A DNA stretch of 64,000 nt, taken from assembly GCA_963422465.1 (NCBI GenBank), contig OY730171.1, positions 186,001-250,000 of the forward strand. The letters run 5' to 3'. How positions within the stretch are numbered: the stretch's first letter is position 1; the number at the start of each line of letters is the position of its first letter. Source of the DNA: Lichina pygmaea. Its lineage: Eukaryota > Ascomycota > Lichinomycetes > Lichinales > Lichinaceae. The notes beneath the pieces are model-generated. The model did not search any database and had not been told where the DNA came from. It saw nothing but the letters and a program-made list of their open reading frames with translations. The position numbers and the translations under genes are program-made. Shown in pieces: positions 771 to 34,918 of the stretch.

Positions 771-778
771 TATAAATA
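771..778 (+). promoter_or_regulatory. TATA box TATAAATA directed at the antisense ORF
   Basis: TATAAATA lies 27 bp inside the LTR edge (805) on the strand opposite gag-pol, so transcription would begin near the edge and reach the antisense ATG at 850. The same box occurs in E (38277-38284) and, as TATATAAA, in C (17422-17429) and F (56499-56506, minus). Confidence 0.65.
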
Positions 779-805: not shown

Positions 806-822
806 CTACCCTCCTTTCCTTC
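806..822 (-). other. Polypurine tract of chromovirus A
   Basis: On the minus strand a purine run (AAGGAAAGGAGGG then TAG) immediately precedes the 3' LTR start TGTT, as expected for plus-strand DNA priming. It fixes the sense direction of the element as minus. Confidence 0.75.
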
Positions 823-849: not shown

Positions 850-1350
850 ATGTCTGCAAAATCATGTACCTCTGCTTACCAAAACCAACTGGCAGCCCAG
901 ATCTGTGATCATAACTTTGTGTCACTTGCTCCGTGTGACTTCTGTGTTTTGAACCACAAGCCCTGCTTCCGAATGTCTGACAACAACGATAAGTTGAAGT
1001 GCGCTGAGTGCACTCATCAGGGAAAGTCCTGTGTGTCACTTTCTTGGGAGTCACTGAACATGACTCAGGATAACCTTCGCAAGGATTTGGCTGTTGATGA
1101 GGCCAAGCGGGATGCTCTTGTTGAGCAGCTTGCCGAGCTGCAGGCTTGTGTATCCCGAAAGTGAAAGGTTCTTGAGGGTGCTGAGGGTCAAGCAAAGAAG
1201 AAGCTCCAGTGCCTTGTTGCTGAAATAGAGGTGGATAGTGAAGACTTGTCAGCGACAGTCATTGACGTGTCTGTGCTGCAGGCCAAGCTGTTCAGTCCTG
1301 CTTCTGCCAGAACTGCTGCAGGAGGAGCTAGCAGTTTGCAAGGTTCCTGA
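850..1350 (+). CDS. Antisense Zn2Cys6 / coiled-coil ORF of chromovirus A (type 1)
   Basis: The ORF runs opposite to gag-pol, between the pol 3' end and the 3' LTR. From the ATG at 850 it encodes 104 aa to TGA 1162-1164; the frame then stays open to TGA 1348-1350, 501 nt in all, the same length as in C, E, F and I. Six cysteines are spaced C-X2-C-X6-C-X11-C-X2-C-X6-C (CDFCVLNHKPC ... CAECTHQGKSC), the spacing of fungal Zn(II)2Cys6 clusters. A charged, Leu/Ala-rich segment follows (NLRKDLAVDEAKRDALVEQL), compatible with a coiled-coil dimerisation region. A DNA-binding regulator is inferred; an RNA-binding or packaging role is not excluded. The internal stop may be the true end or a fixed nonsense codon. 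Confidence 0.7.
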
Positions 1351-4300
1351 GTGGCTCCCAGGTATTTTCCGAGTCTGGGTAGTTTTTCCACTTGACAAGG
1401 TATCGCTGACCTTTTCTCTTCAGGATCTGTTCAGCCTTGAACTCCTGTTCTTCCTCTGGTTGGTAATGAAATATTTCCTGCAAGGGTGTGTTCTGGTCAG
1501 CTAATTTGATCATTGAGATGTGAAAGTTTGGGTGTACCTGAGCATCTCTCGGTAGTCGCAGTCTGACGTTGACTGGTCTGGTTTTTTCTTTGACTGAAAA
1601 TAGTCTGACCTTAACATGGTCCAGTTTCTTTGTTCTTGGTTTCTTTGTTCTCCAATTTCTTGTGAGGAGGTAGACTTTATCCCCCTTCTTTAGCTGAGGT
1701 ACCATTTTCAATTTCTTGTCTATTTGACGTTGCATTCTTTCTGAGGTCTCTTGAAGTTAGTGCCTCATCATTGTGTGTGTTTGTCGTAGGAGCTTGTCAT
1801 GTTGGAGTGCTTTCTCCGTGTTTGGTGAAGCTCTGCTTGGCATCCCGATGTTCACATGTTGTCCAAAATTGGCAAAAAATAGTGATTCCTTTGTTGAGTC
1901 TGATCTGTGCTGGTTGATTGCCAGCTGTGCCACTGGTAATAACTGTACCCAATTGCTGTGGGTCTTGTTGATGTAATGCCGTAAGTAAGTCTCCAGGACT
2001 TGGTTCGCTCGCTCTGTCTGGCCGTCAGTTCGTGGGTGATAGGCTGTAGACATTTTGGGTTTTGTTCCCATGGCTGCACTGATTGTCTTCCAGTAGTTGG
2101 ATGTGAAGAGTTTATCTCTGTCTGTAATGACTGTGATCAGAACTCCGTGGTCTCTGACCAATCTGTCCAGTAGGAGGTGTCCCAACTGTTCTGCTGTGTG
2201 GGTCTTCTTGAACAGTACCACTATTAGATATTTTGTGAATCTGTCCACTATCACCATAATCAAGTCGTAGGTGATTCCTGTGACTGGGTCTTTGGACTTG
2301 GGTAGCTTTGTGATGAAGTCTATTGACACGTCTTCCCACAAGCCTTTCAGTATCGTGTTCGGGTGTCCTTCTCTGTATGGCTTATGTCTTCCATGTTTGT
2401 TTTTCTGGCATAGTAGACACTTGCTGATGTAGTTTGTGACATGTTGTCGGAGGTTAATGACATTGTTCCCTGCCTGTTGGATAAGGTCTGTGGTCTTGGA
2501 GATTCCTGGGTGACTGTGTGCTGGGTTATCATGGTAGTTCCTTATTAGTTCTTCAGTGTCTTCTGCCGTGAGCTTGTTGATCTGTGGTTAAGGCACCAGG
2601 TTTCCTTGCTGGTCCTGCTGTAAGATCATTCCTTGGTGTTCATCATCCTCTATGTGGTCTTTTTGTCGGCTTAGTGCGTCTGCTCTCCTATTATCTTGTC
2701 CAGGGGTGTACAAGATCTTGAACTTGTGTTGCCCTAGGAGTTCAGCCCATCTGACTTGCCATCTGTTCAGCTTCTTGGTTGTCGTGAACGTTGTCAGATT
2801 CTTGTGGTCTGTGAGAATGGTGAGTTCAGAACTGCTTTCTGTGTACACTCTCCAGTGTTCGAGTACGTTGACGACTGCCAGTAGCTCTTTATCGTGGATA
2901 TCATAGTTTTGTTCTGCTTGTGTCATTTTTCGTGAGTAGTAGGCAACTGGGTGCCACTTGCTGTCTGCCTGTTGGCATAGACATGCTCCCACTGCCTGAT
3001 CTGAAGCGTCTGTCTTGATTTGCGTCAGTTGGCCTGTCTTGAAGTTGAGGAGAACTGGTTCCTTGGCGCAAGCGTCCTTGAGCTGTTGGAATGCTTTTTG
3101 TTGTCTCTCCGTCCACCGGTACTCCACGTCCTTCTTTGTGAGTTCTGTCAGTGGTGTTGCCATCTGTGAGTAGTTCTTGATGAACTGTCAGTTGAAGTTG
3201 GCAAATCCTAGGAAGGCTTGTACTTCCTTAACTGATGTCGGTGTTAGCTATTGCTGAATCACTTTGATTTTCTCAGAGTCAATCTTGATCCCTTCAATCC
3301 CTATGATGTATCTGAGGAATTCAACTTCTGGTTTGTTGAACTCGCATTTCTTCGGGTTGAGCTTAAGCCCTACCTCTTGTAGGCATCGTAGAACATCCTT
3401 CACATGTTTGGTATGTTCCTGTTGCGTGTTTGAGTAGACAAGAATGTCGTCCAGGTAGGTGATAGCTGTTTGGTCCAGGTGTGCTCTGATGACATTGTTG
3501 ATCAATGCTTGACATGTTGCTGGTGTGTTTGTGAGTCTGAATGGCATAACCAGATACTCGTAGTGTCTGTATCAGGTTCTGAATGCTGTCTTCCATTCTT
3601 CTCCTTCTTTCATGCGTATCAGGTTGTATGCTCTTTTCAAGTCCAGCTTGGTAAAGATTGTAGCTTGGCTGATCCTGTCTCGCAATTTGTTCGCATTTGG
3701 CAACGGATATCAGTTCTTGATGGTAATGTTGTTGAGTTTCCTGTAATCCACACAAAGTCGAAGACTTCCATCTTTCTTTGGTGCGAATAGTATTGGGTAT
3801 CCTGCTGGCGATTGAGATTCTTGAATAAAACTCTTTTTCAGGTTTTCCTCCAGGTACTCGCGAAGTACTTGGAGCTCTTTCTCTGATAACTGGTAAATTA
3901 GTCCAAATCCTGGCTCCATCTCTGGTTGCAACTTGATCTCATGATCCCAAGGTTGGTGCTTAGGTAACGCTGCTGTTGTTGTTTCTTCCTGAAAGAGGTT
4001 ATCATACCCAGGTCAGTACTCTTCAGGGATCTCCAGAAGGTTAACAACTTCCTCTCTCTTCATCTCTGACTGTTTGGCCACCTGGTTCTGGGGTGTGCCT
4101 GTCAAGGCAGACCTCTTCTCTTGAGAGTTGTCCTTTCTGTTGGTGAGGTTCCACTGAGGACTCCTTCCCTCATCTGTCCACGCCTTCTGCGGCTGGTAAC
4201 AGGTCTGAGCTGTGTTGTTAGTGCAGTTCCTAAACGTGAGTACTCCTGTCTTCCAGTTAACAACTGGGTTGTGCTTCTTTAGCCAAGGCATCCCCAAATA

Positions 4301-6147: not shown

Positions 6148-6746
6148 TGTTGCAGTCTGTACTGTACTGTCCTATCCGAGTATAGGATTAGGGCGAGAGG
6201 TGGAAGGTGGGTTGGTTCTCGCAGGAGAGGAGTGTCAAGGAGCGCGAAGGGGTTTGGTGGAACGTGGTGGTGGTGACACCTGATCAATGGCTTCGTACAA
6301 AGGATTGTATTGAAGTAGATCTAGTTGTCTGGATCACAACATGAGTTGAAGACGATCGTTCCATAAGGGAACTATCACCAGACTATATAGTGCTGGCCTG
6401 TCGAGACAATCGAGATTGTCTTGACAGTCTCGACGTCGAGACAGGTGAGATTGTCTTGACAGTCCCACCATGTTATGCACCCTGCGTCAAGACTGGTGAG
6501 ATTGTCTCGATGCTTCATGCATCATGCGTCGAGACTGGTGAGATTGTCTCGATGCTTCATGCATCATGCGTCGAGACTGGTGAGATTGTCTCGATGCTTC
6601 ATGCATCATGCGTCGAGACTCCTGTGTGTGTCTCGACAGTCACGTGACCCCTTGTCGGTTGGTCACTTGACTTCCATGGTGTCCTCTTGCCTGGCCCGCG
6701 GCCTGATTGCCTATAAATGAGTGGCTCCCATCCCTGGGTCGTAACA
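6148..6746 (-). repeat. 5' LTR of chromovirus A (type 1)
   Basis: Same length as the 3' LTR (599 bp). The dyad array lies at 6400-6637. The plus-directed TATA box (TATAAATG, 6712-6719) here points out of the element into the flank. The sequence after the LTR on the sense strand begins CTTTGAAG, not TGG, so no ordinary tRNA primer site is visible. Confidence 0.95.
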
Positions 6747-10212: not shown

Positions 10213-10483
10213 TGTGACGAGGCAATAGCAGAGCAGAACTCAAGCCTAACTGATTTGGTAACCTTGACCTGACTTGGCTTGAGACTTGAGACTTGGATTG
10301 ATGTACAAGGCGAAAGACGAGGAAGGAAAAGAGAAAAGAAGAGAAGAAGCTGGGGGAGCAGGAGAAGTTCTTATAGGCAGGGGATCAGGCAACAGCGGAG
10401 CAAACAGGCAAACAGTGCAGATAGGACTTCCCGGCAAGGTGCGTGGCTTGTGCCAGATATGCAACTGGGCCAGAACTGTGACA
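10213..10483 (-). repeat. 3' LTR of B1 (271 bp)
   Basis: Nearly identical to 15260-15530. No tandem array and no dyads like those of families 1 and D are seen. The polypurine tract on the minus strand lies at 10484-10500 (GAAGGAGGGGGG). Confidence 0.93.
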
Positions 10484-10499
10484 TTACCCCCCTCCTTCA

Positions 10500-11185
10500 C
10501 ATGGTGAACTCCTGTGAGCCTCAGGCCGCTCGTGGGTGTAGTTCCGTGGCTGTGGTTTCCTTGGGTATTTCTCATGGAAGTTGTAGATGGCGTCTTTGGC
10601 GTTGTCAAGATGCTCAATAGGCTCTTCAGTGGTATCTTTGATTGGCCATCCAGACTATTTGACCAGGTACTTGAACTTCTGTCAAGATGTTGCTGGCTTG
10701 GAGTCAAGGATTTCTTCAACCTGGAACTCTTCATCTGTGTCTTGACCAATGACAGGGCCAGAGTGTTCATTTGATTGGCCAGGGATAGGATTAGCAGGTG
10801 TCAGACGTAGAAGGGAAACATGAAAGACAGAGTGGATCTTGAGAGTGTGTGGAAGCTCCAGATGGCAGGCATGACTTCCGACTGTCTTCAACACCTTGAA
10901 TAGTCCAATCCACTTGTTGTCAAGCTTTTTGCATGGGCGGCGTGTCCTGATGTTCTTGGTATTCAGCCAAACAAGATCTCCAGTTTGATAGGATGGTGAC
11001 GGGACTTGATGCAAATTGGTGGCGTGAGCTTGAGCTTCCTGGGATAGTCGGAGTTCAGCTTGCAACTGTTCCAGAATCTGCGTCATTTCTCCAGAGATTT
11101 CCATAGCATCTTGGTTGCAGGCTTCACCCATGGGTGTGATGCTGAGCTGTGGATGGAACCCTTTGTTGGCAAAGAACAGTGACAT
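10500..11185 (-). pseudogene. pol: pol C-terminal region and chromodomain of B1
   Basis: The 10682-11185 frame ends VEEILDSKPATS followed by TGA. The frame continues QKFKYLVK, TAG, SGWPIKD, then EEPIEHLDNAKDAIYNF to the polypurine tract. It is a chromodomain with two nonsense codons; the TAG sits where the conserved Trp of YLVKW belongs. Upstream is the integrase C-terminal DNA-binding part (YQTGDLVWLNTKN). Confidence 0.85.
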
Positions 11186-11236
11186 GCCAGAGGAATCAGA
11201 CTGGGAGTTGTTCTGCGTGAACTCTGCCAGAGGAAG

Positions 11237-11806
11237 CTATTGGACCCAGTCATCTTGGAGATAGTTGACATAGGATCTCAGGTAGTGTTCAAGCTCCTGA
11301 TTCTCTTGTTCTGTCTGACCATCTGTCTCTGGGTGGTGTCCTGAGGATAGTCGTAGCATGACGTCAAGATGGGCACAGAGTACTTTCCAGAATGAGCTGA
11401 CAAACTGACCTCCTCTGTCTGAGACAATGCTCCTGGGCAAGCCATGGGTACAGACAACAAACTGGATGAACATCCGGACAAGATGTGAGGTTGTCATCTC
11501 AGCACATGGCACAAAGTGGTGTTCTTTGGTGAGACAGTCAGTGATGACCCAGATGTGCTTGGCACCAGGGAAGCAGGTATCTCTTGACTTGGGCAAGTCA
11601 GTAATGAAATCTATAGCCAGATCCTGCCAACATTGCTGAGGCACGGGAAGAGACAGCAGCTCTCCTTGGCGATCACAGGCAGGCTTTGCTCGAGAGCAGA
11701 CATGACAATTCCTGATGTACTGCCGTATGATGTTCACTATCTTTGGCCAATAGTACCAACAAGACAGAAGATTGTGGGTCTTGGCAATCCTAGTGTGGCC
11801 AGCCAT
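11237..11806 (-). pseudogene. Integrase core of B1
   Basis: Contains the zinc-binding end (NCHVCSRAKPACDRQGE) and the catalytic D, D, E in AIDFITDLP, VSDRGGQF and TDGQTEQENQ. The 189-aa open frame ends at a TAG after DDWVQ. The usual upstream HH residues fall in the preceding broken part. Confidence 0.85.
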
Positions 11807-11869
11807 TGCTTGGTCATGGGCTTCTTGGAACAGGCGTAGGCGTAGCTCATCGTTCTCAGAGATCCAGAG

Positions 11870-12817
11870 TCAGTTCTTGTAGAAGAGACAGTCATTTTCC
11901 AAGCTGCAGTCTGAGAGAGACACTTCTCGACTGTGCCTGACACCATCCCTTAGCATCTGTGACACTGTTACCACTGGATCACCTTCAGCAAGGTTGTTAT
12001 AGGCAGCTTGGATAACATCTGAAAGAGGTGTAGCATCAGGTTCAGTGTCAACTGGTGCAGCTTCTGAACATCTCAGGATCTGGATGGGCTTGACTTGAAC
12101 CTCTGAATGTGCAAGATTCTTGGGCTTGAGGATGACTTGCTCCATGAAGTCTTGACAGGGATCACTGTCTGACAGGAGGTCTTGGGAATGTCGAGTGAGG
12201 GTGTCGGCCTTACACTGACTGCCTGGACAATAGCTGATCTTGAAATTGAAGCGTGACAAGAACTCGCTCCAACGGGCTTGACAGCGGGAAAGGCACTTTG
12301 ACGACATGAAGTACTCCAAGTTCTTGTGATCAGAGATCACTTTGACAGGTTCTGGAGATCCTTCAAGCTCTGCTCGCCATTCTTCAAAGGCACAGACAAT
12401 TGCCAGCAACTCTTTGTCGTAGATTTCGTAGTTGCATTCTGCCGGCAGGTGGCGGTGTGACAAGAAGGCAACAGGGCGTAGAACTCCTTCATGGTCTGGC
12501 TGTGACAGGACAGCACCAGAGACGTAGTCAGAAGTGTCAGTCTCAACAACACACTCCTTCTCCGGATCAAAGTGCTGCAGGATGGGTGCAGTGCTGAACG
12601 CCTTCTTGATGCTTTCAAACAAGCGCTGCTCTGGGGTTTCCCACTTGAAGGCAACATTCTTCTTGGTCAGAGCTGTGAGTGGGGATGCAAGCTTGGCAAA
12701 GTCTTTGATGAACCAGCGGTAGAAGTTTGCAAAGGCAATAAAGCTCTGCACTTCCTTGAGACTGGCAGGAGGCTTCCACTCCTTGATGGTGTCAGTCTTG
12801 GCTGGGTCCATACTCAC
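11870..12817 (-). CDS. RNase H region of B1 pol
   Basis: A 315-aa open frame beginning with the RT connection (SFIAFANFYRWFIKDFAKLA), then the RNase H signature [16 protein letters not shown], the [16 protein letters not shown] segment and [13 protein letters not shown]. It is part of the pol polyprotein, separated from RT (12827-13771) by a stop at its 5' side. Confidence 0.85.
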   Translation of the reverse strand: MSMDPAKTDTIKEWKPPASLKEVQSFIAFANFYRWFIKDFAKLASPLTALTKKNVAFKWETPEQRLFESIKKAFSTAPILQHFDPEKECVVETDTSDYVSGAVLSQPDHEGVLRPVAFLSHRHLPAECNYEIYDKELLAIVCAFEEWRAELEGSPEPVKVISDHKNLEYFMSSKCLSRCQARWSEFLSRFNFKISYCPGSQCKADTLTRHSQDLLSDSDPCQDFMEQVILKPKNLAHSEVQVKPIQILRCSEAAPVDTEPDATPLSDVIQAAYNNLAEGDPVVTVSQMLRDGVRHSREVSLSDCSLENDCLFYKN

Positions 12818-12826
12818 AGATCCAGG

Positions 12827-13771
12827 TCAGCCGTCTTCAGTGGCAGACTGAATGATGAGGCCAAGGTACTTGACTTGATGGACTTCAAAGTCACACTTGG
12901 AGATGTCAACTTGCAGGCTTGCATCTCGTAGTCGACTGAGAACAAGCTTGACATGCTTCTGGTGTTCCTTGAGTGTCTGACTGTAGATAAGGATGTCATC
13001 CACATAGGCAGTGCCAAAGACATCAAGGATGTCAGGTCCCAAAACATCATTGATGTAGTTCTGGAATGTGCTTGGAGTATTGGCAAGACCAAAGGGCATG
13101 ACAAGGTATTCGTAGAGGCCTGAGTGTGTGCGGAACGCAGTCTTCCATTCTTCACCTTCCTTCATCCGGATACGGTTGAAGGCACCAACAATGTCAAGCT
13201 TGGTGTACCACACAGCTTTGCAAAGCTGGTCCAACATCTCCCGGATCAGTGGTAGGGGGTAACAGTTCTTGATGGTAATAGTGTTGAGTGCTCTGTAGTC
13301 TACACAGAAACACAATCCACCTCCTGGCTTCTTGACAAAGAGGACTGGTGCAGCAGCAGATGATGAAGATGCTTGAATGAAGCCCTTGTTCAGGTTCTCT
13401 GTCAGGTATTTCTTGAGAACTTCAAGTTCTTCTCTGCTCATGCTGTACAGAGGTCCAGAGGGTGCCTGGGTTCCTGGTTCCATCTTGATCTTGTGGTCAA
13501 CTCCTGGGTGTAGAGGAGGAAGCTTGTCAGCGTCATCCTTGCTGAAGACGTCCAGGAACTTGTGGTACTGAGCAGGGAGAAGTGTGGCAGGGTCCACACA
13601 CTTCTTTGGCTTCAACACCTGCTCAATGTCTCTCAGAGAAACACTGAACACCTGGTGATCTGGCTTGGCAGCAAGGAGAGAAAATGCGGCAGCATTGATG
13701 GGGATTGGCGTGGCAGAAAGAGGCTTGGGATCCTGAGGCTTTCCAGCAGACGTCTTGGCTTCAAGATCCAA
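12827..13771 (-). CDS. Reverse transcriptase region of B1 pol
   Basis: A 314-aa frame with the finger/palm motifs [55 protein letters not shown] and the catalytic YVDD in AYVDDILIYS. The N-terminal start shown is not a true initiator; the frame is part of a gag-pol product broken upstream by stops around 13800-13860. Confidence 0.88.
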   Translation of the reverse strand: MDLEAKTSAGKPQDPKPLSATPIPINAAAFSLLAAKPDHQVFSVSLRDIEQVLKPKKCVDPATLLPAQYHKFLDVFSKDDADKLPPLHPGVDHKIKMEPGTQAPSGPLYSMSREELEVLKKYLTENLNKGFIQASSSSAAAPVLFVKKPGGGLCFCVDYRALNTITIKNCYPLPLIREMLDQLCKAVWYTKLDIVGAFNRIRMKEGEEWKTAFRTHSGLYEYLVMPFGLANTPSTFQNYINDVLGPDILDVFGTAYVDDILIYSQTLKEHQKHVKLVLSRLRDASLQVDISKCDFEVHQVKYLGLIIQSATEDG

Positions 13772-13799
13772 AGAGATTGGATAGCTATTGTTTGACTTG

Positions 13800-14320
13800 A
13801 GGCATGCAGATCAGCAGTGATCTGACTTGAACATGATTGAGGTGTTTGCCCAATCAATGTGTAGCCTGTGCTTCTGGAGCTATGGCATCCCCAGAATCAC
13901 ATCATAGTGAAGACCAGGAGACACAAAGAGAGAGACTTCTTCCTGGTGCACACCATGTGCTGTGGTCATGATTGTCTTGGTGAGATGCGTGGTTTGTGAT
14001 GTCTTGCCATCAAACGATCACAATGTGCGTGGGTAGGGGAGAGGTTCTTGGTGAAGAGATTGCGCAAAGGAAGCACCAATGCAGCCAAATGCTGAACAGC
14101 CAGAGTCAATAAGAGTATTGCACTTGAATTTCCCATCTAGGATACAAGGAAGAAACAAGCACTTGCTGTCTAATTGCTGGTCTGGAGACAGATAGCCAAC
14201 ATGGAGATCCTTTTCATGTTCTTGGGTGCGACGATAACCAAGGACTACTTGTTTTCCGACTCTGGAGTAGTCTCAACAGTGGCAGACTTGGTGGTGGTTG
14301 TGGTGGTGGCAACAACAGGC
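13800..14320 (-). pseudogene. Protease region of B1
   Basis: The minus strand near 14090-14115 reads LIDSGCSAFGCIGA, the aspartic protease D-S-G site, and further on GMP-TAG-LQKHRLHIDWAN. Several stops interrupt the frame between gag and RT. Confidence 0.65.
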
Positions 14321-15201
14321 ATGCTTTTCACTGGACAGAAGGTTGAGATGTGACCTTGGTTCCCACAGTAGAAGCAGAGGCCTTTGCTTCAGCGACATTC
14401 TTGCTTTTCTGGCATCAGCTTAGAGTGGCTGAGATCCATAGTAGGACTTGGTGGCTGTGGCGTGAAGGCTGGCTTGATGAACCCTGGACACAGAACTGAA
14501 GCTCCTGACTGTGGAACTGAGGCTTGGGTGGGAGGTGCTTGATGTGGACGGTGAGAGTTGGCAGAAGTGGCACGCAACTGGTTGTCCTGCAGCTGGCATT
14601 CCTCAACAAGCTTCTGATAGCTGATGTCCTTGAGGTTGATGCTGACAAGCTGCTTGGCAAGCTCTTCAGAGACAGCGCATCGAAGATAGCACTTCAAGGC
14701 CTTGTTGTTGAAGCCTGTGCGTGGAGTATACTGATTGAACTCTGTGAAGAACTCGGCAAAGGAACAGTTGGCCTGACGTAAGGTGATGAGCTTTCTCTGA
14801 GCTAGGAACTCTGGGTCTGGGTCAGAGAAAGTGTTCCGGAGATCTTGGACAATGTTGTGCCAGTCAATGTACTGGCCAGCTGTGATCTTAGCTGAGATGT
14901 AGGACTGCGCAGTGCCAGTTGTGCGTGAAAAGACATACGTAATCCACGATGTTTCCGTGGGGTACCGGTCAGTGTTGAGCGTCATCTTGAGTGACAGTGA
15001 TGTGATGAAGCTCTCAAGCTTCTCATGCGTGATTTCCGTGTTTCCGCCATCACCACTGAAGATCTCTGGGTCAGCAGTGTGTTCGGACTTGGACTTGGGA
15101 GTAGTGTTAGTAGCTTGAATTCGCATGAACTCTGCAAACATGTTGCGAAGGAACTTGTCATTTCCAGCAACTGGCATGGCTTGGTCTGGTTGTTGAGACA
15201 T
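14320..15201 (-). pseudogene. gag: gag of B1 with CCHC knuckle
   Basis: The ATG at 15199-15201 is 58 bp from the 5' LTR. The 270-aa frame has the gag fold region (FAEFFTEFNQYTPRTGFNNK) and stops at a TGA just before the zinc knuckle CFYCGNQGHISTFC, which lies in the same frame downstream. Copy B2 has CAA at that codon, so the ancestor was probably CGA (Arg) and CpG decay created the stop. Confidence 0.85.
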
Positions 15202-15259
15202 GACAAGGACGTGAACGTGGCTTGGTGAAGTGTGTTATGGTTGGGTAGGTCTTTCGCAG

Positions 15260-15530
15260 TGTGACAAGGCAATAGCAGAGCAGAACTCAAGCCTAACTGA
15301 TTTGGTAACCTTGACCTGACTTGGCTTGAGACTTGAGACTTGGATTGATGTACAAGGCGAAAGATGAGGAAGGAAAAGAGAAAAGAAGAGAAGAAGCTGG
15401 GGGAGCAGGAGAAGTTCTTATAGGCAGGGGATCAGGCAACAGCGGAGCAAACAGGCAAACAGTGCAGATGGGACTTCCCGGCAAGGTGCGTGGCTTGTGC
15501 CAGATATGCAACTGGGCCAGAACTGTGACA
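15260..15530 (-). repeat. 5' LTR of B1 (271 bp)
   Basis: Pairs with 10213-10483. It is followed on the plus strand by CCAAG, which is LINE 5' sequence continuous with 48409 onward in LINE H. Confidence 0.93.
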
Positions 15531-16824: not shown

Positions 16825-17455
16825 TGTTGCGGTCTGTACTGTACCGTCCTATCCGAGTATAGGATTAGGGCGAGAGGTGGAAGGCGGGTTGGTTCTCGCA
16901 GGAGAGGAGTGTCAAGGAGTGCGAAGGGGTTTGGTGGAACGTGGTGGTGGTGACACCTGATCAATAGCTTTGTACAAAAGGATTGTATTGAAGTAGATCT
17001 AGTTGTCTGGATCACAACATGAGTTGAAGATGATTGTTCCATAGGGGAACTATCACCAGACTATATAGTGCTCAGTTCGTGAGCACAGTGAGCTCTGCTC
17101 ACTTTGCTCACTCGGTGAGATCAGTGAGCTCTGCTCACTTTGCTCATGGTTCATGCACACTGTGGTGAGCTGGGTGAGCTCTGCTCACTTTGCTCACTTG
17201 TTCATGCACACTGCGGCGAGCTGGGTGAGCTCTGCTCACTTTGCTCACTTTTCATGCATGCTGTGGCAAGCTGGGTGAGCTCTGCTCACTTTGCTCACTT
17301 GTTCGTGCATATGCATGCTGCGGCAAGCACCCCCTGGTTTGTCTCGCCAGTCACGTGACTGGTTCCCGTGTCACACTGCCTGGTACTTCTGTCCAGTATC
17401 CTGTCTGCTGCTTTCTGTGAGTATATAAAGACTGTATTCCTCCTGGGTCGTAACA
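16825..17455 (-). repeat. 3' LTR of chromovirus C (type 2)
   Basis: TGTT...AACA. It shares the first part with type 1, then diverges. The array at 17079-17289 has five dyads G(T/C)(G/A)AG(C/A)-N12-GCTCAC starting at 17079, 17115, 17165, 17216 and 17266, all with a 12-bp spacer. GTCACGTGAC is at 17350-17359 and TATATAAA at 17422-17429, both leading into the antisense ORF. Confidence 0.95.
17079..17289 (+). promoter_or_regulatory. Array of five N12 dyads in LTR type 2
   Basis: GTGAGC-N12-GCTCAC at 17079-17102 and 17165-17188 are perfect; the others differ by one or two bases in the left half. The array holds the same position as the N10 dyads of type 1 but has a different sequence and spacing. 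Confidence 0.65.
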
Positions 17456-17498
17456 CTATCCTTCTCTCTATCTTTCATCATCTTGATGAAATCTGGTC

Positions 17499-17999
17499 AT
17501 ACCTCCAAAGTCATGTGCGACTGTTAGCCGAACTCAGCTTGCTGCTCAAATCTGCGATTGGGGTTTTGTTTTGCGTACGCCCTGCAACTTTTGTGTTCTC
17601 CGTGGTCGTCTGTACTTCCAGATGCTGGGAGAAGACGATAAGTTGAAATATGCTGTGTGCACTTGGCGTGGAAGGTCTTGTGTCTCTGTGTCCTGGGAAT
17701 CTCTGAACATGTCCCGGGACAACCTCTGTGAGGATGTGGCCACTGACAAGGCAACACGCAACACACTCTTCAAACAACTTGCCACAGTGCAGGCTTGTCT
17801 GTCTTGGAAGTGAAAGGTGTTGGAGGGTGCTGAGGTCTGTGCAAGGCAGAAGCTTCAGTGCTTGGTGAAAGAGATAGAGTTGGATGGCAAGGATTTGACT
17901 TGATCAGTTATTGACATGTCCCTCCTGCAGGCTGAGCTGTTTGGTCCTGCTCCTGCCAGAACTGTTGCAGAAGAAGCTGGCAGTTCGCGAGGTTCTTGA
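17499..17999 (+). pseudogene. Antisense Zn2Cys6 ORF of chromovirus C (type 2)
   Basis: The 501-nt frame matches F. The start codon is ATA (17499-17501) where F has ATG. Two of the six cluster cysteines are Tyr (GRLYF, KLKYAVC). The stop at codon 105 is TGA (17811-17813), and there is a further TGA in LT-TGA-SVI. Variant residues (GEDDKLK, SVSWESLNMSR, ATDKATR) match F rather than A, E and I. Confidence 0.7.
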
Positions 18000-20900
18000 G
18001 TAGTTCCCAGGTATTTTCTGAGTCTGGGTATCCTTTCCACTTGACAAGGTATTGCTGACTTTTTCTAGCCAGGATCTGTTCAACTTCAAACTCTTGTTCT
18101 TCTTCAGGTTGATAATGGAATGTTTCCTGCAAGGGTGTGCTCTGGTCGGCTGGTTCAATCATCAATATATGAAAGTTTGGATGGACTCTGGCATCCCTTG
18201 GTAGTTGTATCTTGACATTGACTGGTCCTGTTTTTTCTTCGACTGAAAATAGTCTGACCTTGATGTTGTCAAGTTTCTTTGTTTTTGGTTTCTTTGTTTT
18301 CCAATTTCTTGTGAGGAGGTAGACTTTATCCCCCTTCTTTAGCTGAGGTGCTATTTTTGATTTCTTGTCTATTTGATGTTGCATTCTTTCTGAGGTCTCT
18401 TGAAGGTAGTGCCTCATCATCGTGTGTGTTTGTCGTAGGAGCTTGTCATGTTGGAGTGCTTTCTCCATGTTTGGTGAAGCTCTGCTTGGCATCCTGATGT
18501 TTGTATGTTGTCCAAAATTGGCAAAAAATAGTGATTCCTTTGTTGAGTCTGATCTGTGCTGGTTGATTGCCAGCTGTGCCACCGGTAATAACTATACCCA
18601 ATTGCTGTGAGTCTTGTTGATGTAATACTGTAAGTAAGTCTCCAGGACTTGGTTTGCTTGCTCTGTCTGGCTGTCAGTTTGTGGGTGATAGGCTGTAGAC
18701 ATTTTGGGTTTTGTTCCCATGGCTGCACTGATTGTTTTCCAGTAGTTGGATGTGAAGAGTTTGTCTCTGTCTGTAATGATCGTGATTGGAACTCTGTGGT
18801 CTCTGACCAATCTGTCCAGTAAAAGGTGTCCCAACTGTTCTGCTGTGTGGGTCTCCTTGAATAGTACTGCTATTAGATATTTTGTGAATCTGTCCACTAT
18901 CACCATAATCAAGTTGTAGGTGATTCCTGTGACTGGGTCTTTGGACTTGGGTAGCTTTGTGATAAAGTCCATTGACATGTCTTCCCACAGGCCTCTTGGT
19001 ATCATGTTCGGGTGTCCTTCTCCGTATGGCTTATGTCTTCCCTGTTTGTTTTTCTGGCATAGTAGACACTTGCTGATGTAGTTTGTGACATGTTGTCAGA
19101 GGTTAATGATATTGTTCCCTGCCTGTTGGATAAAGTCTGTGGTCTTGGAGATTCCTGGGTGACCATGTGCTGGATTATCGTGGTAGTTCCTTATTAGTTC
19201 TTCAGTGTCTTCTGCTGTGAGCTTGTTGATCTGTGGTTGAGGTACCAGGTTTCCTTGCTGGTCCTGCTGTAAGATTGTTCCTTGGTGTTCATCATCTTCC
19301 ATGTGGTTTTTTTGTCAGCTTAGTGTGTCTGCTCTCCTATTGTCTTGTCCAGGGGTGTACAAGATCTTGAACTTGTGTTACCCTAGGAGTTCAGCCTATC
19401 TGACTTACTGTCTGTTCAGCTTCTTGGTTGTTGTGAATGTTGTCAGATTCTTGTGGTCTGTGAGAACAGTGAGTTCAGAACTGCTTTCCACGTACACTCT
19501 CCAGTGTTCGAGTGCGTTGACGACTGCCAGTAGCTCTTTGTCGTGGATATTATAGTTTTGTTCCACTTGTGTCATTTTTCGTGAGTAGTAGGCACCTGGG
19601 TGCTACTTGCTGTCTGCCTGTTGGCATAGACATGCTCCCACTGCCTGATCTGAAGCGTCTGTCTTGATTTGTGTCGGTTGGCCTGTCTTGAAGTTGAGAA
19701 GAACTGGTTTCTTGGCGCAAGCATCCTTGAGCTGTTGGAATACTTTTTGTTATCTCTCCATCCACCAGTACTCCACGTCCTTCTTCGTGAGTTCTGTCAG
19801 TGGTGTTGCCATCTGTGAGTAGTTCTTTATGAACTGTCAGTTGAAGTTGGCAAATCCTAGGAAGGCTTGTACTTCCTTAACTGATGTCGGTGTTGGCTAT
19901 TGCTGAATCACTTTGATTTTCTCAGGGTCAATCTTGATCTCTTCAATTCCTATGATGTATCTGAGGAATTCAACTTCCAGTTTGTTCAACTTGTATTTCT
20001 TTGGGTTGAGCTTGAGCCCTGCCTGTTGTAGGCATCGTAGAACATCCTTCACGTGTTTGGTATGTTCCTGTTACGTGTTCGAGTAGACAAGAATGTCATC
20101 CAGGTAGGTGATAGCTGTTTAGTCCAGGTGTACTCTGATGATGTTATTGATCAATGCTTGACATGTTGCTGGTGTGTTCATAAGTCTGAATGGCATCACC
20201 AGATACTTGTAGTGTCTGTATCAGGTTCTGAAGGCTGTCTTCTATTCTTCTCCTTCTTTCATGCATATCAGGTTGTATACTCCTTTCAAGTCCAGCTTGG
20301 TAAAGATTGTAGCTTGGCTGATCCTGTCTCGTAATTTGTTTGCATTTGGCAACAGATATCAGTTCTTGATGGTAATGTCGTTGAGTTTCCTGTAATCCAT
20401 ACAAAGTTGAAGACTTCCGTCTTTCTTTGGTGCAAATAGTATTGGATATCCTGCTGGCGATTGAGATTCTTGAATGAAACTCTTTTTCAGGTTTTCCTCC
20501 AGGTACTCGCGAAGTACTTAGAGCTCTTTCTCTGATAACTGGTAAATTGGTCCAAATCCTGGCTCTGTCCCTGGTTGCAACTTGATCTCATGATCCCAAG
20601 GTTGGTGCTTAGGCAACACTGCTATCGTTATCTCTTCCTGAAAAAGGTTATCATACCCAGGCCAGTACTCTTCAGGGATCTCCAGAGGGTTAACCACTTC
20701 CTCTCTCTTCATCTCTGACTGTTTGGCCACCTGGTTCCGGGGTGTGCCTGTCAAGGCAGACCTCTTCTCTTGAGAGTTGTCCTTTCTGTCAGTGAGGTTC
20801 CACTGAGGACTCCTTCCCTCATCTGTCCATGCCTTCTGCAGCTGGTAACAGGTCTGAGCTGTGTTGTTAGTGCAGTTCCTAAATGTGAGTACTCCTGTCT

Positions 20901-22796: not shown

Positions 22797-23427
22797 TGTT
22801 GCAGTCTGTACCGTACTGTCCTATCTGAGTATAGGATTAGGGCGAGAGGTGGAAGACAGGTTGGTTCTCACAGGAGAGGAGTGTCAAGGAGTGTGAAGAG
22901 GTTTGGTGGAACATGGTGGTGGTGACACCTGATCAATGGCTTCGTACAAAAGGATTGTATTGAAGTAGATCTAGTTGTCTGGATCACAACATAAGTTGAA
23001 GATGATTGTTCTATAGGGGAACTATCACCAGACTATATAGTGCTCAGTTTGTGAGCACAGTGAGCTCTGCTCACTTTGCTCACTCGGTGAGATCGGTGAG
23101 CTCTGCTCACTTTGCTCACAGTTCATGCACGCTGTGGTGAGCTGGGTGAGCTCTGCTCACTTTGCTCACTTGTTCATGCACGCTGCGGTGAGCTGGGTGA
23201 GCTCTGCTCACTTTGCTCACTTTTCATGCACGCTGTGGTGAGCTGGGTGAGCTCTGCTGACTTTGCTCACTTGTTTGTGTATATGCATACTGCGGCAAGC
23301 ACCCCCTGGTTTGTCTCACCGGTCACGTGACTGGTTCCTGTGTCATGCTGCCTGGTACTTCTGTCCAGTATCCTGTCTGCTGCTTTCTGTGAGTATATAA
23401 AGACTGTGTTCCTCCTGGGTCGTAACA
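22797..23427 (-). repeat. 5' LTR of chromovirus C (type 2)
   Basis: Same length and organisation as 16825-17455. Confidence 0.95.
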
Positions 23428-23505: not shown

Positions 23506-23937
23506 TGTTAAAGGCCAGGCCGGATTCACACAGAAACCAGTACGGTCTGTTGCTTCGTGGGCGGATTCTTAGACAGGGACTCGGTAGAGGAATAGACAGG
23601 TGGGGTAACTCTCCTGTGCTATTGTCTCTGTACGATGGGTTTGTATTGCTTGTATGTGTTCAGCCTGGAGAGCTAATCCCTCCGGGCTCTTTGGGGGTCT
23701 TTATACAGATGCCCCAAGGGGGGGGGTCTCCTCGAGGGGTATCATCCTTTTGCGTGGACAAGCTCCTTGCTTAGCTCCTGCTTGTCCACCGGACGAGCTC
23801 CTCGCTTAGCTCCTGCTTGTCCACCGGACAAGCTCCTCGCTTAGCTCTTGCTTGTCCACCGGATCGGTCGGATGTTGTTCCGCATGACTAACACCTCTCC
23901 CTCGCTTACCTGGGCTGTTCCGGCCTAGGCCTTAACA
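23506..23937 (-). repeat. 3' LTR of chromovirus D
   Basis: Contains three 35-bp tandem units (23754-23857), each a dyad GGAC(A/G)AGC-N16-GCTTGTCC; the first extends to a perfect 10-bp dyad at 23754-23789. CGG-N8-CCG follows at 23869-23882, a spacing class used by Zn2Cys6 proteins. The sister LTR has one unit more. Confidence 0.95.
23754..23882 (+). promoter_or_regulatory. N16 dyad array and CGG-N8-CCG in the D LTR
   Basis: Dyads start at 23754, 23791 and 23826 with 16-bp spacers; CGG(23869-23871)-N8-CCG(23880-23882). All lie upstream of the antisense ORF on its strand. No clear TATA box is seen between here and the LTR edge. Strong hairpin potential in RNA is an alternative reason for the dyads. 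Confidence 0.55.
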
Positions 23938-24061
23938 CTATCCCCTCCCTCCAAGGGTTCTGTCCCCAGATCCTTTTTGTTCCTGCTCCTCTTTTGCCAT
24001 GAACCAAAGCCAGACAACTTGAACTCGTCGTCGCGGTTTTCTCTCTTGTCGTGTTGGCAAA

Positions 24062-24571
24062 ATGGGCAAGGAATCAAAAATCACATGCGGTGCTTGTTGT
24101 CGCGACCACGCCAAGTGTGTTGTGAGTTCTGCATTGTCTTTTTGTTGTCGGTGCATCAAGAAGGGTTGTCACTGCGACCTTCATCTCTCGGAATCAGAAT
24201 AGAAGAAGATGGAACTTGAGCGCGAGCAGCTCAAGGCTCAGCTGCGGGAGACTGATGACCAACTGTCAAAACTGCTTCCCCGGCAGATCCGTCTCCGCCG
24301 GCAGCTGGGTCATCTCTCACAGAAGGAGGCTGATGCCATCCGTCGTGAGCTGTCGGCTATCAAGGATCAAGAGTCCCTTGATGCTCAGGAACAAGAGGCC
24401 CTCCGTGTTATCCGCGAACGGAAGGCCTGTCAAGCTGCTGCTCCGCTGTCCTTTGAGGACATCTTCTCTTCGGAGGCTTTGGCTTCTCTCGAGCTGTTGT
24501 CTCTGTCGGACCTGGTCACTGCGGATTTGCTTGGTGGTAATCCACCAGTTTCTGGTTCATCACAGAGCTGA
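24062..24571 (+). pseudogene. Antisense Zn2Cys6 / coiled-coil ORF of chromovirus D
   Basis: ATG 24062. Cysteines are spaced C-X2-C-X6-C-X8-C-X2-C-X6-C (CGACCRDHAKC, then CCRCIKKGCHC), again the Zn(II)2Cys6 pattern. TAG at 24200-24202 interrupts the frame; from 24209 a 120-aa open part has a strongly charged Leu-heptad stretch (MELEREQLKAQLRETDDQLS onward), a convincing coiled coil, and then an acidic/Leu-rich tail (LSFEDIFSSEALASLELLSL) that resembles an activation domain. Total frame 510 nt, close to the 501 nt of family 1. The 3' end overlaps pol by 56 bp, convergent. It shares architecture but no clear sequence with the family-1 ORF. Confidence 0.65.
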
Positions 24572-27500
24572 AGTTCTCGGTTGGTTCCCACAAATTCTCC
24601 TCTTCATCAAATCCTAACCACTTCACCAGGTACTCAGTTTTCCGTCTGTTTCTCCGACTATCCAGGATCCTTTCAACATCGTACTCTTCTTCATCGTCCT
24701 CAAAGTTCCATTCTGTTTCGACCTCTGCGTCACTGGGTACTGGTTTGAGCAGCGAGACGTGGAATACTCAGTGTATCCTTGCTTTTCGTGGCAGTCTCAG
24801 TCGATAGTTGACTTTCCCAGTGTGCTTCTTGATTTCGAATGGTCTGATTCGTACATGGTCCAGCTTTTTGCTTGGTCGCTTCAAGCGCAGGTTTTTTGTT
24901 GATAGGTAGACCTTATCCCCTCTTTCCAGGGTTGGTCCCTTCAACCTTTTGTTGTGTAATCAGCGGGCAGTAGCGTTCTGGGCACAGTCGATTGTTGTTT
25001 TCATCATCTCGTGCATAGCAGCGAGTTTGCTAACATCGACAACGTTGCCTTCTGCTGTTGCCTGCCATCAGGGGTTTCTTCCGTAGTTCGCAAAGAACAG
25101 TGTCGTCCCTGTCACACTATGTTGCTGGTCGTTGTACACAAACTGGGCTATTGGTAGCAGTTCCACCCAGTTGTCCTGCTGGTGGTTGACGTAGTGTTGT
25201 AGATACTGCTCCATTGTCTGGTTTGTCCACTCAGTTTATCTGTCAGTTTGTGGGTGGTAGGCTGTTGACATCCTTGTATCAATGCCAAGTTGCCTTGTCC
25301 ACATGTTCCAGAATTTCAAGGTGAAGAGTTTGTCTTGATCTGAGATAATTGTCTTTGGTAGCCCTCGGTGGCTTACCAGCTCTCTGAGTAGGACGCTCGC
25401 GAGTTCGTTCGCGGTTCCTGACTCTTTCCACAGGACCAGGTGGGTGTATTTGGTGAGTTTGTCAACAACCACCAGAATACTATCGTATACCACCTTTGTT
25501 GCTGGGTCTGTTGACTTTGGCAACTTGACCACGAAATCCATCATGATAGTTTCCCATGGTGCCTCGGGTAGGTCTATCTGCTGTGCCTGCCTGTAGGGCT
25601 TATGCCTTGATGGTTTGTTCTTCGCGCACTGTTCACAGTTGCAGATGAACTCTGTCACCTTGCACTTCATTCTGTCAAAGCGGTAGTTCCTTTGGATTTT
25701 CTCCAAGGTTTTGTCTCACCCGGGGTGTCCATGCAAAGGCCTGTCATGGTGCCTCCGGATCACCTTCTCTTGTGCTCTTTCTGGCACAATTTCCTTTTTG
25801 TTTGCTGTCTTGTGGCTGAGGGTAAGGAGTGGACTCTTTGTTTCTGTTGTTGCCAGTTGGGGTTGGGCATAGACCAAGGTTTGTCCTTTTGTCGCTAGGA
25901 TTGGGTGTTCCTCTGTTGTTTTCTCATCCATCAGGTCTGGTCGCCTGCTGAGGGCGTCCGCTCGAGCATTTTCAGTGCCCTTCCAGTAGAGGATTTGGAA
26001 GTTGTATGATGCTAACAACTCTGCCCATCAAACTTGTCATCAGTTTAGCTTCTTTGTTGTTGTGAAGTAAGCTAAGTTTTTGTGGTCTGAGTACACGTCT
26101 ATCGTGTATTTTACCCTCTCCAAGTAAGGCCTCCATTCTTGGAATGCGTCGACGATTGCTAACAACTCTTTGTCATGAACATCGTACCTTAGTTCTGGGC
26201 CAGAGAACTTTCTCGATCAGTATGCGACAGGGTGTAAGCAGTTGTCGGCGTCTGGTTGACACAAGCAGGATCCCAATGCTTGGTCTGAGGCATCAGTCTC
26301 CAGAATGATCCTCTTCTCGGGATCAAATGATGCCAAAATAGGTGCGGAGATGAATTTATCCTTCAACTCCTGGAAGGCCACTTGTTGGCTCTCCCCCCAC
26401 CTGAAAGATTCGTTCTTTCTGGTTAACTCTGTCAAGGCTGCTGCTGTTCTTGAGTAGTCCTTGATGAATCATCAGTAGAAGTTTGCAAACCCTAGGAAGG
26501 ATTGTACTTCTTTGAGGTTTTTTTGGGTGTTGGCCAGTCTCGTACTGCTGCTGTCTTTGTGTCGTCCATTCGGATTCCTTCTGTTGTCAGGATTGACCCC
26601 AAATATTCCACTTCCTTTGTGTGGAAAACACTTTTATCCAGGCGTAACCTCATCCCTGCTCTCTGGAGCGCATGTAGGATCTTCTTGACATGCTGTTTGT
26701 GCTCCTCCAAGGTTCCATTGGTGTATACCAAGACGTTGTCAATATAAGCAGTGACAAATATGTCCAGGTATTGTCGGAGGACAGCGTTAATAAGTGATTG
26801 GAATGTCGCCGGTGCATTTGTAAGGCTGAATGGCATCACAGTATACTTGTAGTGCCCATACCTTGTATGAAAGACTGTCTTCCATTCTTCGCCGTCTTTC
26901 ATCCTAACCAGGTTGAAAGTGCCTTGAATGTCGAACTTGGTAAACTATTTGGCTCCTTGGATCCGGTCTTGGATTTCCGATATTAACGGTAGTGGGTAGT
27001 GATTCTTAATTGTGATCGCATTAAGCTGCCGGTAGTTGACGCACAGTCGTAATTTGCTGTTCTTCTTTGGCACAAACAATATCGGGTATCCAGCCAGTGA
27101 TGTTGAAGGTCTTATGAACCCTTTCGCTAGGTTCTTGTCCAGGTAGTCTCTCAGGGCCTCAAGCTCTTTTGCTGACAGAGCGTAGATAGGGCTGTGTGTG
27201 GGTTTTTTTCTGTCTTCCAGCGGAATCTTGTGGTCCCACTCCTGATGTTCCAGTAGCGTTGCGATCGCTGTTTCTTCAAACATCTCCTGGTATTCTTTAT
27301 ACTCACTTGGCAACTGCGGTGCCTGAGTCTCGCCCACGGCGTCTTGCGTGGTGCAAAGTTGTTGTGTTCGGGGTTTCATCCAGGCCACACAGGCCTCCCC
27401 GCACTAGTGGTATTTCTTCCACCATGTCAGTGAGATTTCTTTAATCGTCACCCCTGGTTCTGACATGACCAGTGTCTCATCTGGAAAGACTAGTTACCTT

Positions 27501-28021
27501 CTTTTCCAGTCAATCCTTGGGTTTTGTTTTTCCAACCACGGAAGTCCCAATATAACTTTGTGTGGTATCCGGACCAAGTCGAATTCTTCTGTTCTGATCA
27601 TCGTGCCATGGACACTCAGTCTCAGGCTCTTGGTCTCCTTTGTCACTTGTCCCTTGTCTTTGGAGAGTGGTGTTCTGTCCACTACCGTCAACTGGTAGAG
27701 GTCTCTCTTACCTTGGACTGGAACCTTGTTTCTTCTGGCAAAGCTTTCTGACATGAAGTTGCCAGTTGCACCAGAGTCAATCATGGCCTTAGCCAACCGC
27801 CCATTGACTCTGATCTTGATGTGAAAGTGCGGGCTGCAGGCTGTTGCGTCAAGACTCGGCTTGACTCCTTCCTCCCGGGGTGTTGTCTTGCCTGCTCTTC
27901 CAACCCCGGTTTTGAAGAGCACTGCTAGTTTTTTGAGCTGCCTAGGCCCTGGGCCTGACGCTCTACCACGTGTTGTTTGCATCATGTGGTGGTGCATTGT
28001 TCCCTCAGGTCTTGGTTGCAA
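24516..28021 (-). pseudogene. pol: pol of chromovirus D
   Basis: Protease (27494-28021, AMIDSGATGNFMS), RT (26492-27388, LRLCVNYRQLNAITIKNHYP; catalytic box is YIDN, not YIDD), RNase H (26217-26435 and on, LETDASDQALGSCLCQ), integrase (25236-25706, CNCEQC, MMDFVVKLPKS, ISDQDKLFTL) and a chromodomain (24570-24692, TEYLVKWLGFDEEENLWEP). Stops, mostly at Trp or Gln codons, break it between domains. Pol ends at TGA 24516-24518. Confidence 0.88.
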
Positions 28022-29295
28022 TCATCGGCAATATCTCTGACCTGTGTGATGCTGAGGGTATCGTCGACCCATCGTGACACTTGCGTCTCCCCTATTTCCG
28101 ATAGGGTTGCGTCCTGTTGTCGAAGGACAGGTTTGTCGGGGACTGGTGGTGGCTGGGTTTCCTTGTCGTCAACCTGTTCCTCCATGTAGCCGGTTGTGTC
28201 AAACTCGGAGATCAAGTCTTCCTCCCAGTAGATCTCGTTGACCCTCCTTCAGACCTTGTCAAGGTGGTCCAAGGTTTCTTGGAGCATGTTCTCGAGTTTT
28301 TCGGTGTGTTGTCAGAGGTCGTCCTCCTCTCTGAGGAGTGCCGCCTCAGGGTGATTGTGGGGCAGTATGCCTTGGGGGGCTCTCTGGGGCTCCTCCATCT
28401 CCCTGCCTTTCCAGGCACTTGTGGTGTTCAACTGCTTCCCTTTGCCCTTCTTGTTCTTCTTCTTGCTTCTGCAGTTTACCGTGAGGTGGCCCACTTTCTG
28501 ACAGTTGTAACACTTTTGTGTCTCCTTCTTTTGTGGTTCCGCCGCATCAATTTCCATGGGTACCAAGCTGTAGTTATCTTTGGCAGGTGTTGGCTTTTTC
28601 TTCACCCATAGTTTTGTCTGCTTGCCTCGCTTCTCAAGCTCTCTCTCAAACTGTCAGTCGTCAATGTGAGCCGCAGTCTCAATCATTTTGTAGAGCTCGG
28701 TTGGTCAGTCTCCTTGTGCGATGTCATCCTTGACTTGTTCCTTGAGGCCTTGGTAGAATAGTGCTGTTAGTGCACTGTCCCCCCACTGGGTCCTCACTGC
28801 TAGTTGTTGGAACTTCGCCGCGAATTCCGATGCCGATCCAGTTTGCCGCAGTGCTTGGAGCTTTCGTTCCGCATCCCTTTCCTCATCAAGGATCCCAAAC
28901 GTCTTTCTTATGGCTGTCTTAAAGGTTTTCAAGCTTCCCATGACCTGTCGGGTATTGTCTTCTTGCTCCGTGGAGTCTGCCTGATTGTCTAGGTAATCCC
29001 TTAAGTAGATGTTGAACCAAGCGAAGGCTGGTCCTTCCAGGTAGGAGGCTGCAAATAGCACCTTCTCCTGGTCTGTTGGGAACTGGGCTGTGTTGAACCC
29101 ATAGTAGAGCTCCAGTTGTGAGAAGAATAACTCCAGTCCTCCCCTGGATCCATCGTACCTCTTCGGGGCACCTACTTTCAAGGGCTTCAGGGGTAGGTTA
29201 ACAATAGGTGCTGCCTGGACAGCCTGGGCCTGAGCTGACTGAACAGCCTGGGCTTGGGCTGCCTGAGAAGGGGTAGGGCTGCGTGGATCCACCAT
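28022..29295 (-). pseudogene. gag: gag of chromovirus D
   Basis: ATG 29293-29295, 38 bp from the 5' LTR. The N-terminal block (28705-29295) has QAAQAQAVQSAQAQAVQAAP repeats and the gag helical region (FAASYLEGPAFAWFNIYLRD). A second block holds the knuckle CYNCQKVGHLTVNC at about 28470-28515. In-frame stops after QGD, HID and EEDDL interrupt it. The first two fit TGG or CGA to TGA changes. Confidence 0.85.
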
Positions 29296-29333
29296 CGTAT
29301 CAAGTCAGTGTCCTGTACATTAGAGGCTGAAAC

Positions 29334-34734: not shown

Positions 34735-34918
34735 TTTTATTTTCTCCAGACACTGCATATTCTTCCAGATAATTCCCTAGTCTTACCCAAGTCTCAGTTT
34801 TTATTCCTTCAAAGGTTTTCTGGGAAAAAAAGCATGTATCTAGAAGTTCTGCATGGCTCACCAGCCAAATCAGAGTAAGAATAAAATAATAAAAATAAAA
34901 ATAAAAAAAATAAAATAT
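34735..34918 (+). other. LINE G 3' UTR and A-rich tail
   Basis: Non-coding 3' UTR followed from about 34880 by AAATAAAAATAAA-type repeats that mark the reverse-transcription start. Confidence 0.8.

Follow-up and report, generated by a model that had tools for sequence, protein, structure and literature searches.

The stretch of DNA analysed here, referred to as the window, comprises 64,000 nucleotides of contig OY730171.1 of Lichina pygmaea and carries near its start element A, a Ty3/gypsy chromovirus on the minus strand that encodes gag, reverse transcriptase (RT), RNase H, integrase and a chromodomain, as identified with Pfam. Its 3' long terminal repeat (LTR; 207-805, minus sense strand) and its 5' LTR (6148-6746, minus strand) form a 599-bp pair with 95% identity, with TGGAA as the target duplication. 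Inward of the 3' LTR lie the polypurine tract (806-819, minus strand; complement CTACCCTCCTTTCC on the plus strand) and the integrase C-terminus (1331-1735, minus strand), composed of an SH3-like domain and a chromodomain, the latter matching PF00385 (Chromo) at 1.6e-12 in element A and at 4.5e-16 in element F. On the strand opposite to gag-pol, an open reading frame (ORF) at 850-1350 (plus strand) starts 45 nt inward of the 3' LTR end and sits between pol and the 3' LTR, the position that defines the aORF-3R class of antisense ORFs. The sequence-only reading of this DNA had placed a gene here, and the ORF, its strand and its position are as it described. The frame spans 166 codons in intact relatives; copy A closes after 104 codons, with a stop in frame at 1162-1164, though its frame runs on to 1350. 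Beside gag and pol, this antisense ORF constitutes a genuine third gene, conserved in two chromovirus families: family 1, to which element A belongs, and family 3.

Copies of the antisense gene and selection on its frame

Five family-1 copies of the ORF are present in the window, falling into subfamilies 1a (A, E and I) and 1b (C and F). Copies E (38357-38857, plus strand) and I (60914-61414, plus strand) contain several stops, copy F (55929-56429, minus strand) stops after 104 codons, and copy C (17499-17999, plus strand) is decayed and without an ATG. The six-cysteine spacing, earlier attributed to all five, is retained in four, copy C having kept four of its six cysteines and lost two. Protein identity to A is 63% for F and 55% for C, and an intact pair across the subfamilies (L003 against P0066, 1a against 1b) shares 70%.

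A first look at the genome yielded 499 candidates with the 1a query and 511 with the 1b query, the two sets probably overlapping, and 150 candidates were scored per query, making the genome copy counts lower bounds. The comparison covered 81 copies from the most similar end of the candidate lists, 49 of 1a and 32 of 1b, and took in the five window copies; a duplicate of the copy in the window was left out, as was one further copy that has an indel. Fully open frames occur in 22 of the 81 (16 of 1a, 6 of 1b), a share that is not representative since the most similar copies were chosen, while all six cysteines are complete in 48 of 49 copies of 1a and 31 of 32 copies of 1b.

Stops in the decayed copies are mostly TGA, and CpG-type transitions account for roughly half of the sites that vary from copy to copy (76 of 163 in 1a, 88 of 143 in 1b), indicating that the 104-residue product is the result of decay. 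The suggestion that it constitutes a separate form is therefore withdrawn: all five window copies fall short of an open frame of 166 codons, and that frame is intact elsewhere in the genome. Differences within LTR pairs are almost only transitions, with 21 CpG and 11 other transitions in A (207-805 and 6148-6746), 19 CpG and 14 other transitions plus one transversion in C (16825-17455 and 22797-23427), and 2 CpG and 15 other transitions plus two transversions in part of the E pair (37712-38101 and 43655-44044).

This decay pattern bears on one possible role of the protein, that of an anti-silencing factor binding its own repeated LTR motifs and opposing CpG methylation or heterochromatin, a route by which the VANC proteins of Arabidopsis VANDAL elements counteract silencing. 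With CpG transitions at about half of the variable sites and a CpG observed-to-expected ratio of 0.32 in the window, the element seems to face a CpG-directed process, and binding sites in a tandem array, such as those described below, would fit. However, no catalytic or chromatin domain rises above the Pfam cut-off, and this analogy-based role is considered unlikely.

The antisense ORF is under clear purifying selection. Between 1a and 1b, the ratio of non-synonymous to synonymous substitution (dN/dS) is 0.16 across 96 intact pairs (dN 0.207, dS 1.30), not near 1, and 0.17 across all 1568 1a-1b pairs. In a 20 by 20 comparison, the remaining five frames of the same DNA gave 1.15, 1.25, 1.35, 1.50 and 0.27, and fixed differences between the subfamilies are distributed as 23/16/46 over the three codon positions. 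In a set of 83 rows, which includes the one duplicate and the one indel copy, 23 are open in the antisense frame and none in any of the others. The value of 0.27 belongs to frame 4, the gag-pol-strand reading of the same DNA, which was rejected as a coding candidate with at least two stops in each of the 83 rows; its ratio is taken as a shadow of the real antisense frame. Intact copies within a subfamily show higher ratios, 0.50 in 1a and 0.28 in 1b, as expected because decay after insertion adds non-synonymous change. The adjoining C-terminus of pol gave a dN/dS of 0.31 and a dS of 0.53 (8 by 30 loci), so the antisense ORF is further diverged than this pol end and is nevertheless conserved like the element's own proteins (0.16 versus 0.31).

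The same values weigh on the proposal that the antisense RNA itself acts, through double-stranded RNA or interference, with the frame being incidental. Although yeast Ty1 is regulated by antisense RNA, as described in PMC12786077, a function of the RNA alone would leave the low dN/dS and the codon-position bias unaccounted for, as well as database relatives that remain full length at about 45% identity, and this explanation is strongly disfavoured, with hardly any probability left to it.

Relatives in a second chromovirus family and known antisense genes

Element D (23506-29800, minus strand; LTRs 23506-23937 and 29334-29800), overlooked by the sequence-only reading, is a distinct chromovirus assigned to family 3. 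Its gag is 34% identical to that of A, and identity to A is 41-53% in pieces of integrase-chromo, RT and RNase H. Between its 3' LTR (23506-23937, minus strand) and the integrase/chromodomain end of its pol (24561-24953, minus strand, located by tblastn), D carries an antisense ORF at 23999-24571 (plus strand) with the spacing C-X2-C-X6-C-X8-C-X2-C-X6-C and a coiled coil, interrupted by stops at 24020 and 24200. A gene at the same position in another chromovirus, for which a search had been proposed, is thus found within the window itself. Thirty family-3 loci, the window copy included, comprise 17 that are open across 190 codons and 28 with all six cysteines. A chromodomain is encoded on the opposite strand at a fixed distance from the ORF in 38 of 38 family-1 loci and 29 of 30 family-3 loci. 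Alignment of the family-1 and family-3 profiles with hhalign gave an E-value of 1.3e-6 and a probability of 90.6, and BLASTP gave 3e-6 for one author-picked pair (family-3 copy L104 against P0098), with the cysteines in register; by this sequence comparison the two antisense proteins look homologous. Family 2, the third Ty3/gypsy family (LTR 10213-10483), has about 115 bp between its LTR and the pol match (10483-10598) and therefore no room for an antisense gene.

Searches for relatives returned 62 proteins at E<=10 and, with a profile of distant members, 48 proteins at E<=0.01; the ORF profile matches 244 database proteins at E<=0.1, of which 120 were listed. Relatives range down to about 25-45% identity, and Watsoniomyces obsoletus, a lichinomycete by taxonomy, is a source organism among them. 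P0055 and P0062 continue, in another frame, into a stretch matching the antisense reading of element A pol (72% across 50 residues for P0055), and the same arrangement therefore exists in another sequence. The N-terminal extension of P0004, judged by eye, has a length that fits the stretch of A leading from TATAAATA across the LTR end as far as the ATG. A scan of viral contigs gave 18 pattern matches, none confirmed as a relative.

Zinc clusters of the Zn2Cys6 type follow the range C-X2-C-X6-C-X5to12-C-X2-C-X6to8-C. In a 50-row set chosen by the author (two loci and 48 of the 158 returned proteins), 34 rows keep this spacing and one row has X8 between Cys2 and Cys3. The pattern is not lost in the relatives, being present in 32 of the 37 rows of at least 140 residues; the five without it are P0134, P0138, P0141, P0156 and P0157. 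A predicted fold resembling Zn2Cys6 factors, described in the next section, would suit a recent capture of a host Zn2Cys6 transcription-factor gene by one element lineage. Such an event is very unlikely, as the checked copies adjoin a chromodomain, the gene is common to two diverged families and its relatives reach down to about 25-45% identity, whereas an ancient capture of a host Zn2Cys6 gene is possible.

The earlier view that an antisense gene is foreign to Ty3/gypsy elements does not hold, since Zhao et al. reportedly described in 2011 the antisense gene brtn in Boty-like elements of Botrytis cinerea, a study cited in PMC7264820 and PMC8365987. The brtn gene lies antisense between pol and the 3' LTR of a fungal Ty3/gypsy element (PMC7264820), a CHROMO domain is given for one Boty-like element that carries it (PMC4227169) and similarity to BRTN is reported in Monilinia (PMC5987419). 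By description, brtn is like family 1 in place, antisense strand and fungal Ty3/gypsy host element. Plant LTR retrotransposons carry antisense ORFs of the aORF-3R class, including Grande gene23, RIRE2, Retand ORF4 and PvRetro13 (PMC7264820), with the same place, orientation and presence in most copies as here; Grande gene23 is transcribed antisense and has a nuclear product (PMC7264820). Their products show no clear similarity to other proteins except for an SMC domain in PvRetro13 and a transposase 28 domain in Retand (PMC7264820), and they differ in this from the present family, with its Zn2Cys6-like cluster and coiled coil. No report of a zinc cluster in such an antisense ORF was found in the paper listings and text passages searched, which lay outside subscription papers such as Zhao 2011.

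Predicted structure of the antisense protein

The ORF is predicted to encode a small protein whose N-terminal part holds a Zn2Cys6-like cluster and whose C-terminal part forms a coiled coil. In copy A, the six-cysteine cluster (residues 29-61; 934-1032, plus strand) has the spacing C-X2-C-X6-C-X11-C-X2-C-X6-C, and a region with a heptad pattern follows (residues 66-128; 1045-1233, plus strand). This heptad-like segment, already noticed from the sequence, appears as a long helix with a periodicity of 3.55 in the AlphaFold2 model of copy L003, and the coiled coil should make the modelled protein a dimer. Built without templates, the model has a mean predicted local distance difference test (pLDDT) score of 84 and shows a Zn2Cys6-like layout, in line with the proposed cluster. 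The domain model has 13 listed structural neighbours, every one a Zn2Cys6 entry with low Z; they represent 8 proteins and include Gal4 at 1.9 A across 36 residues. Foldseek with the domain returned five rows, headed by two for Pho7 (E 0.29 and 0.41) and followed by three unrelated ones, while the full-length model gave no significant Foldseek match; in a comparison against the PDB, GAL4 tops 21 rows with an E-value of 0.16.

The proposed Pfam search for Zn_clus (PF00172) gave matches below cut-off. Zn_clus is the Pfam family touched by most members of the protein family, with 11 of 50 at E<=0.1 and a best E-value of 0.0011, but all fall below the curated cut-off of 21 bits, with scores of 11.3-18.7 bits among those shown. 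The window protein has no Pfam match; two full-length copies and copy F have matches that are all sub-threshold, Zn_clus not among them, and NCBIfam returned weak matches alone, far below cut-off. Gal4-type factors (Gal4, Ppr1, Put3, Leu3, Hap1, Lac9, Pho7 and AlcR) share with the antisense protein the cysteine spacing, the predicted layout of two CxxC helices and a coiled coil thereafter. In contrast to these factors, the protein is short, has no further Pfam domain above cut-off and misses that of Zn_clus.

LTR motifs and a candidate regulatory circuit

Two TATA motifs are present in the U3 (unique 3') region of element A. The first, CTATATAG (442-449), a candidate gag-pol core promoter, is palindromic, its strand and role being putative, and the motif is found in 36 of 38 family-1 loci. 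The second, TATAAATA (771-778, plus strand), is a candidate promoter of the antisense gene and lies 79 nt before its ATG. Of 11 1a rows, two of which (window A and L001) are one copy, 10 have an antisense TATAAA at -79/-80; in 1b it lies at -75 in 32 of 32 copies, though the flanking U3 is otherwise unlike that of 1a. A transcript start 25-30 nt downstream of this TATA would fall near the LTR edge. No antisense TATA was seen in element D.

Between the two motifs of A, Tandem Repeats Finder (TRF) detected tandem 42-bp units (542-679), and in the U3 of D tandem 35-bp units (23756-23863); where decay is slighter, as in copy L084, these carry the palindrome GCTCGTCC-ACC-GGACGAGC. By TRF, unit length is 42 bp in 1a, 50 bp in 1b and 35 bp in family 3. 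Arrays occur in 8 of 8 1a loci (42 bp), 29 of 30 1b loci (50 or 51 bp) and 28 of 30 family-3 loci (27 at 35 bp); the family-2 LTRs at 10213 and 15260 have no tandem array. Less decayed units of A contain TCGAGAC-N10-GTCTCGA, the inverted repeat of the second unit being matched by 44 of 2000 shuffled units and that of the first, more decayed unit by 1714 of 2000. The corresponding figures are 226 of 2000 for GTGAGC-N3-GCTCAC in the 1b unit and 7 of 2000 for GCTCGTCC-N3-GGACGAGC in family 3 (locus L084). Over the whole LTR, the number of perfect inverted repeats was reached by 0 of 200 dinucleotide shuffles in A and in C and by 1 of 200 in F, an excess helped by the tandem copies, which themselves add counts; no perfect inverted repeat was counted in D's own LTR or in that of family 2. 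With CpG-decay variants allowed, at least one palindromic unit is present in 8 of 8 (1a), 30 of 30 (1b) and 29 of 30 (family 3) loci, and at least two palindromes lie between both TATA motifs in 35 of 38 family-1 loci.

The two subfamilies differ unevenly along the element. Their ORF regions share about 72-73% DNA identity and their U3 regions are unlike save for the TATA, the LTR end and the polypurine tract, whereas the opposite LTR end (154 bp) is 94-96% alike. Against 1b copies, A shares 79-80% identity in the integrase-chromo piece and 87-89% in RT and RNase H; against 1a copies the corresponding values are 82-89% and 88-91%. Deeper in pol, the two subfamilies hence diverge scarcely more than copies within a subfamily do. 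From this sequence comparison, U3, ORF and pol end seem to have changed together as one cassette, which is what a protein and its sites would be expected to do, though exchange of a neutral segment would leave a similar pattern. When 207-1735 is set against 16825-18384, the contrast looks as if a cassette of U3, ORF and pol end had been exchanged.

These features suggest a regulatory mechanism, to which we give a probability of about 0.5. The antisense gene would probably be transcribed from its TATA promoter in the 3' LTR, where U3 ends, and the dimeric product would bind the tandem inverted-repeat units in U3, placed in family 1 between the antisense TATA and the candidate gag-pol TATA, thereby adjusting both its own and gag-pol transcription. 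Gal4, acting at the divergent GAL1-GAL10 promoter, serves as the model for such a circuit. Transcription, zinc binding, dimerisation, DNA binding and the direction of regulation are what we infer from the sequence.

One observation weighs against DNA binding of this kind. The Cys2-Cys3 loop of Gal4 is basic and contacts DNA, whereas in family 1 this loop is not basic, with a mean charge of +0.32 over 34 rows (family 1 and relatives), and the basic residues lie in the second loop rather than the first; family-3 copies often have RRDHAK in the first loop. This weakly basic first loop is the main doubt about the mechanism. The loop would sit more easily with a real protein of another role, a nuclear or particle-associated accessory factor in integration targeting, nuclear entry or Gag/RNA chaperoning, its cluster and coiled coil making contact with proteins or RNA and the LTR units being host-factor sites. 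For plant antisense ORFs, PMC7264820 gives the function as unknown, places some of the products in the nucleus and mentions accessory roles among the proposals. An accessory role nonetheless appears somewhat unlikely given the predicted Zn2Cys6 layout with DNA-binding domains as all 13 listed neighbours, the inverted repeats of the U3 arrays in most loci of the ORF-bearing families, and the joint divergence of U3 and ORF between subfamilies.

Extending the DNA-binding mechanism, fungal chromoviruses may possess a self-contained circuit: their own dimeric Gal4-like factor, an antisense LTR promoter and iterated palindromes between divergent U3 promoters, with U3 sites and protein co-evolving as an exchangeable cassette, in a family that may bridge retroelements and fungal Zn2Cys6 factors. 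This wider picture is offered tentatively, with the odds leaning moderately against it. Human T-cell leukaemia virus type 1 (HTLV-1) offers a parallel in HBZ, a basic leucine zipper (bZIP) regulator that dimerises through a helix and is encoded on the antisense strand from the 3' LTR. The protein described here is likewise encoded antisense by a retroelement at its 3' LTR, has a predicted dimerising helix and, by analogy, would act as a regulator; HBZ differs in being a bZIP protein rather than a zinc cluster and in belonging to an animal retrovirus, and we know of no sequence relation between the two. An antisense promoter is present in the HTLV 3' LTR (PMC7264820).

An antisense ORF at this place is of a kind already known, while the protein identity, the presence in two families and the LTR layout appear new within the literature searched. 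In the 2020 review, the function of antisense ORFs is not known and no clear similarity to other proteins is described (PMC7264820); the ORF studied here can be given a recognisable biochemical type, shows signs of selection, has relatives in other sequences and comes with specific candidate sites on DNA. If the proposed circuit is true, a mobile element entering a fungal genome brings its own transcription factor together with the sites that this factor targets. That would bear on the ways in which elements evade or exploit control by the host, and perhaps on the origin of part of the large fungal Zn2Cys6 repertoire.

Elsewhere in the window, two non-LTR retrotransposons occupy 44062-47995 and 30803-35870, with RT and endonuclease-RT domains; the upstream 389-residue ORF of the one at 44062-47995 has no Pfam match. 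Family 2 is found at 10213-15530 and about 57235-58137, with short LTRs of 271 bp, and a diverged family-2 LTR-like copy (59644-59914, 62%) overlaps a 79-bp repeat of 1.9 copies.
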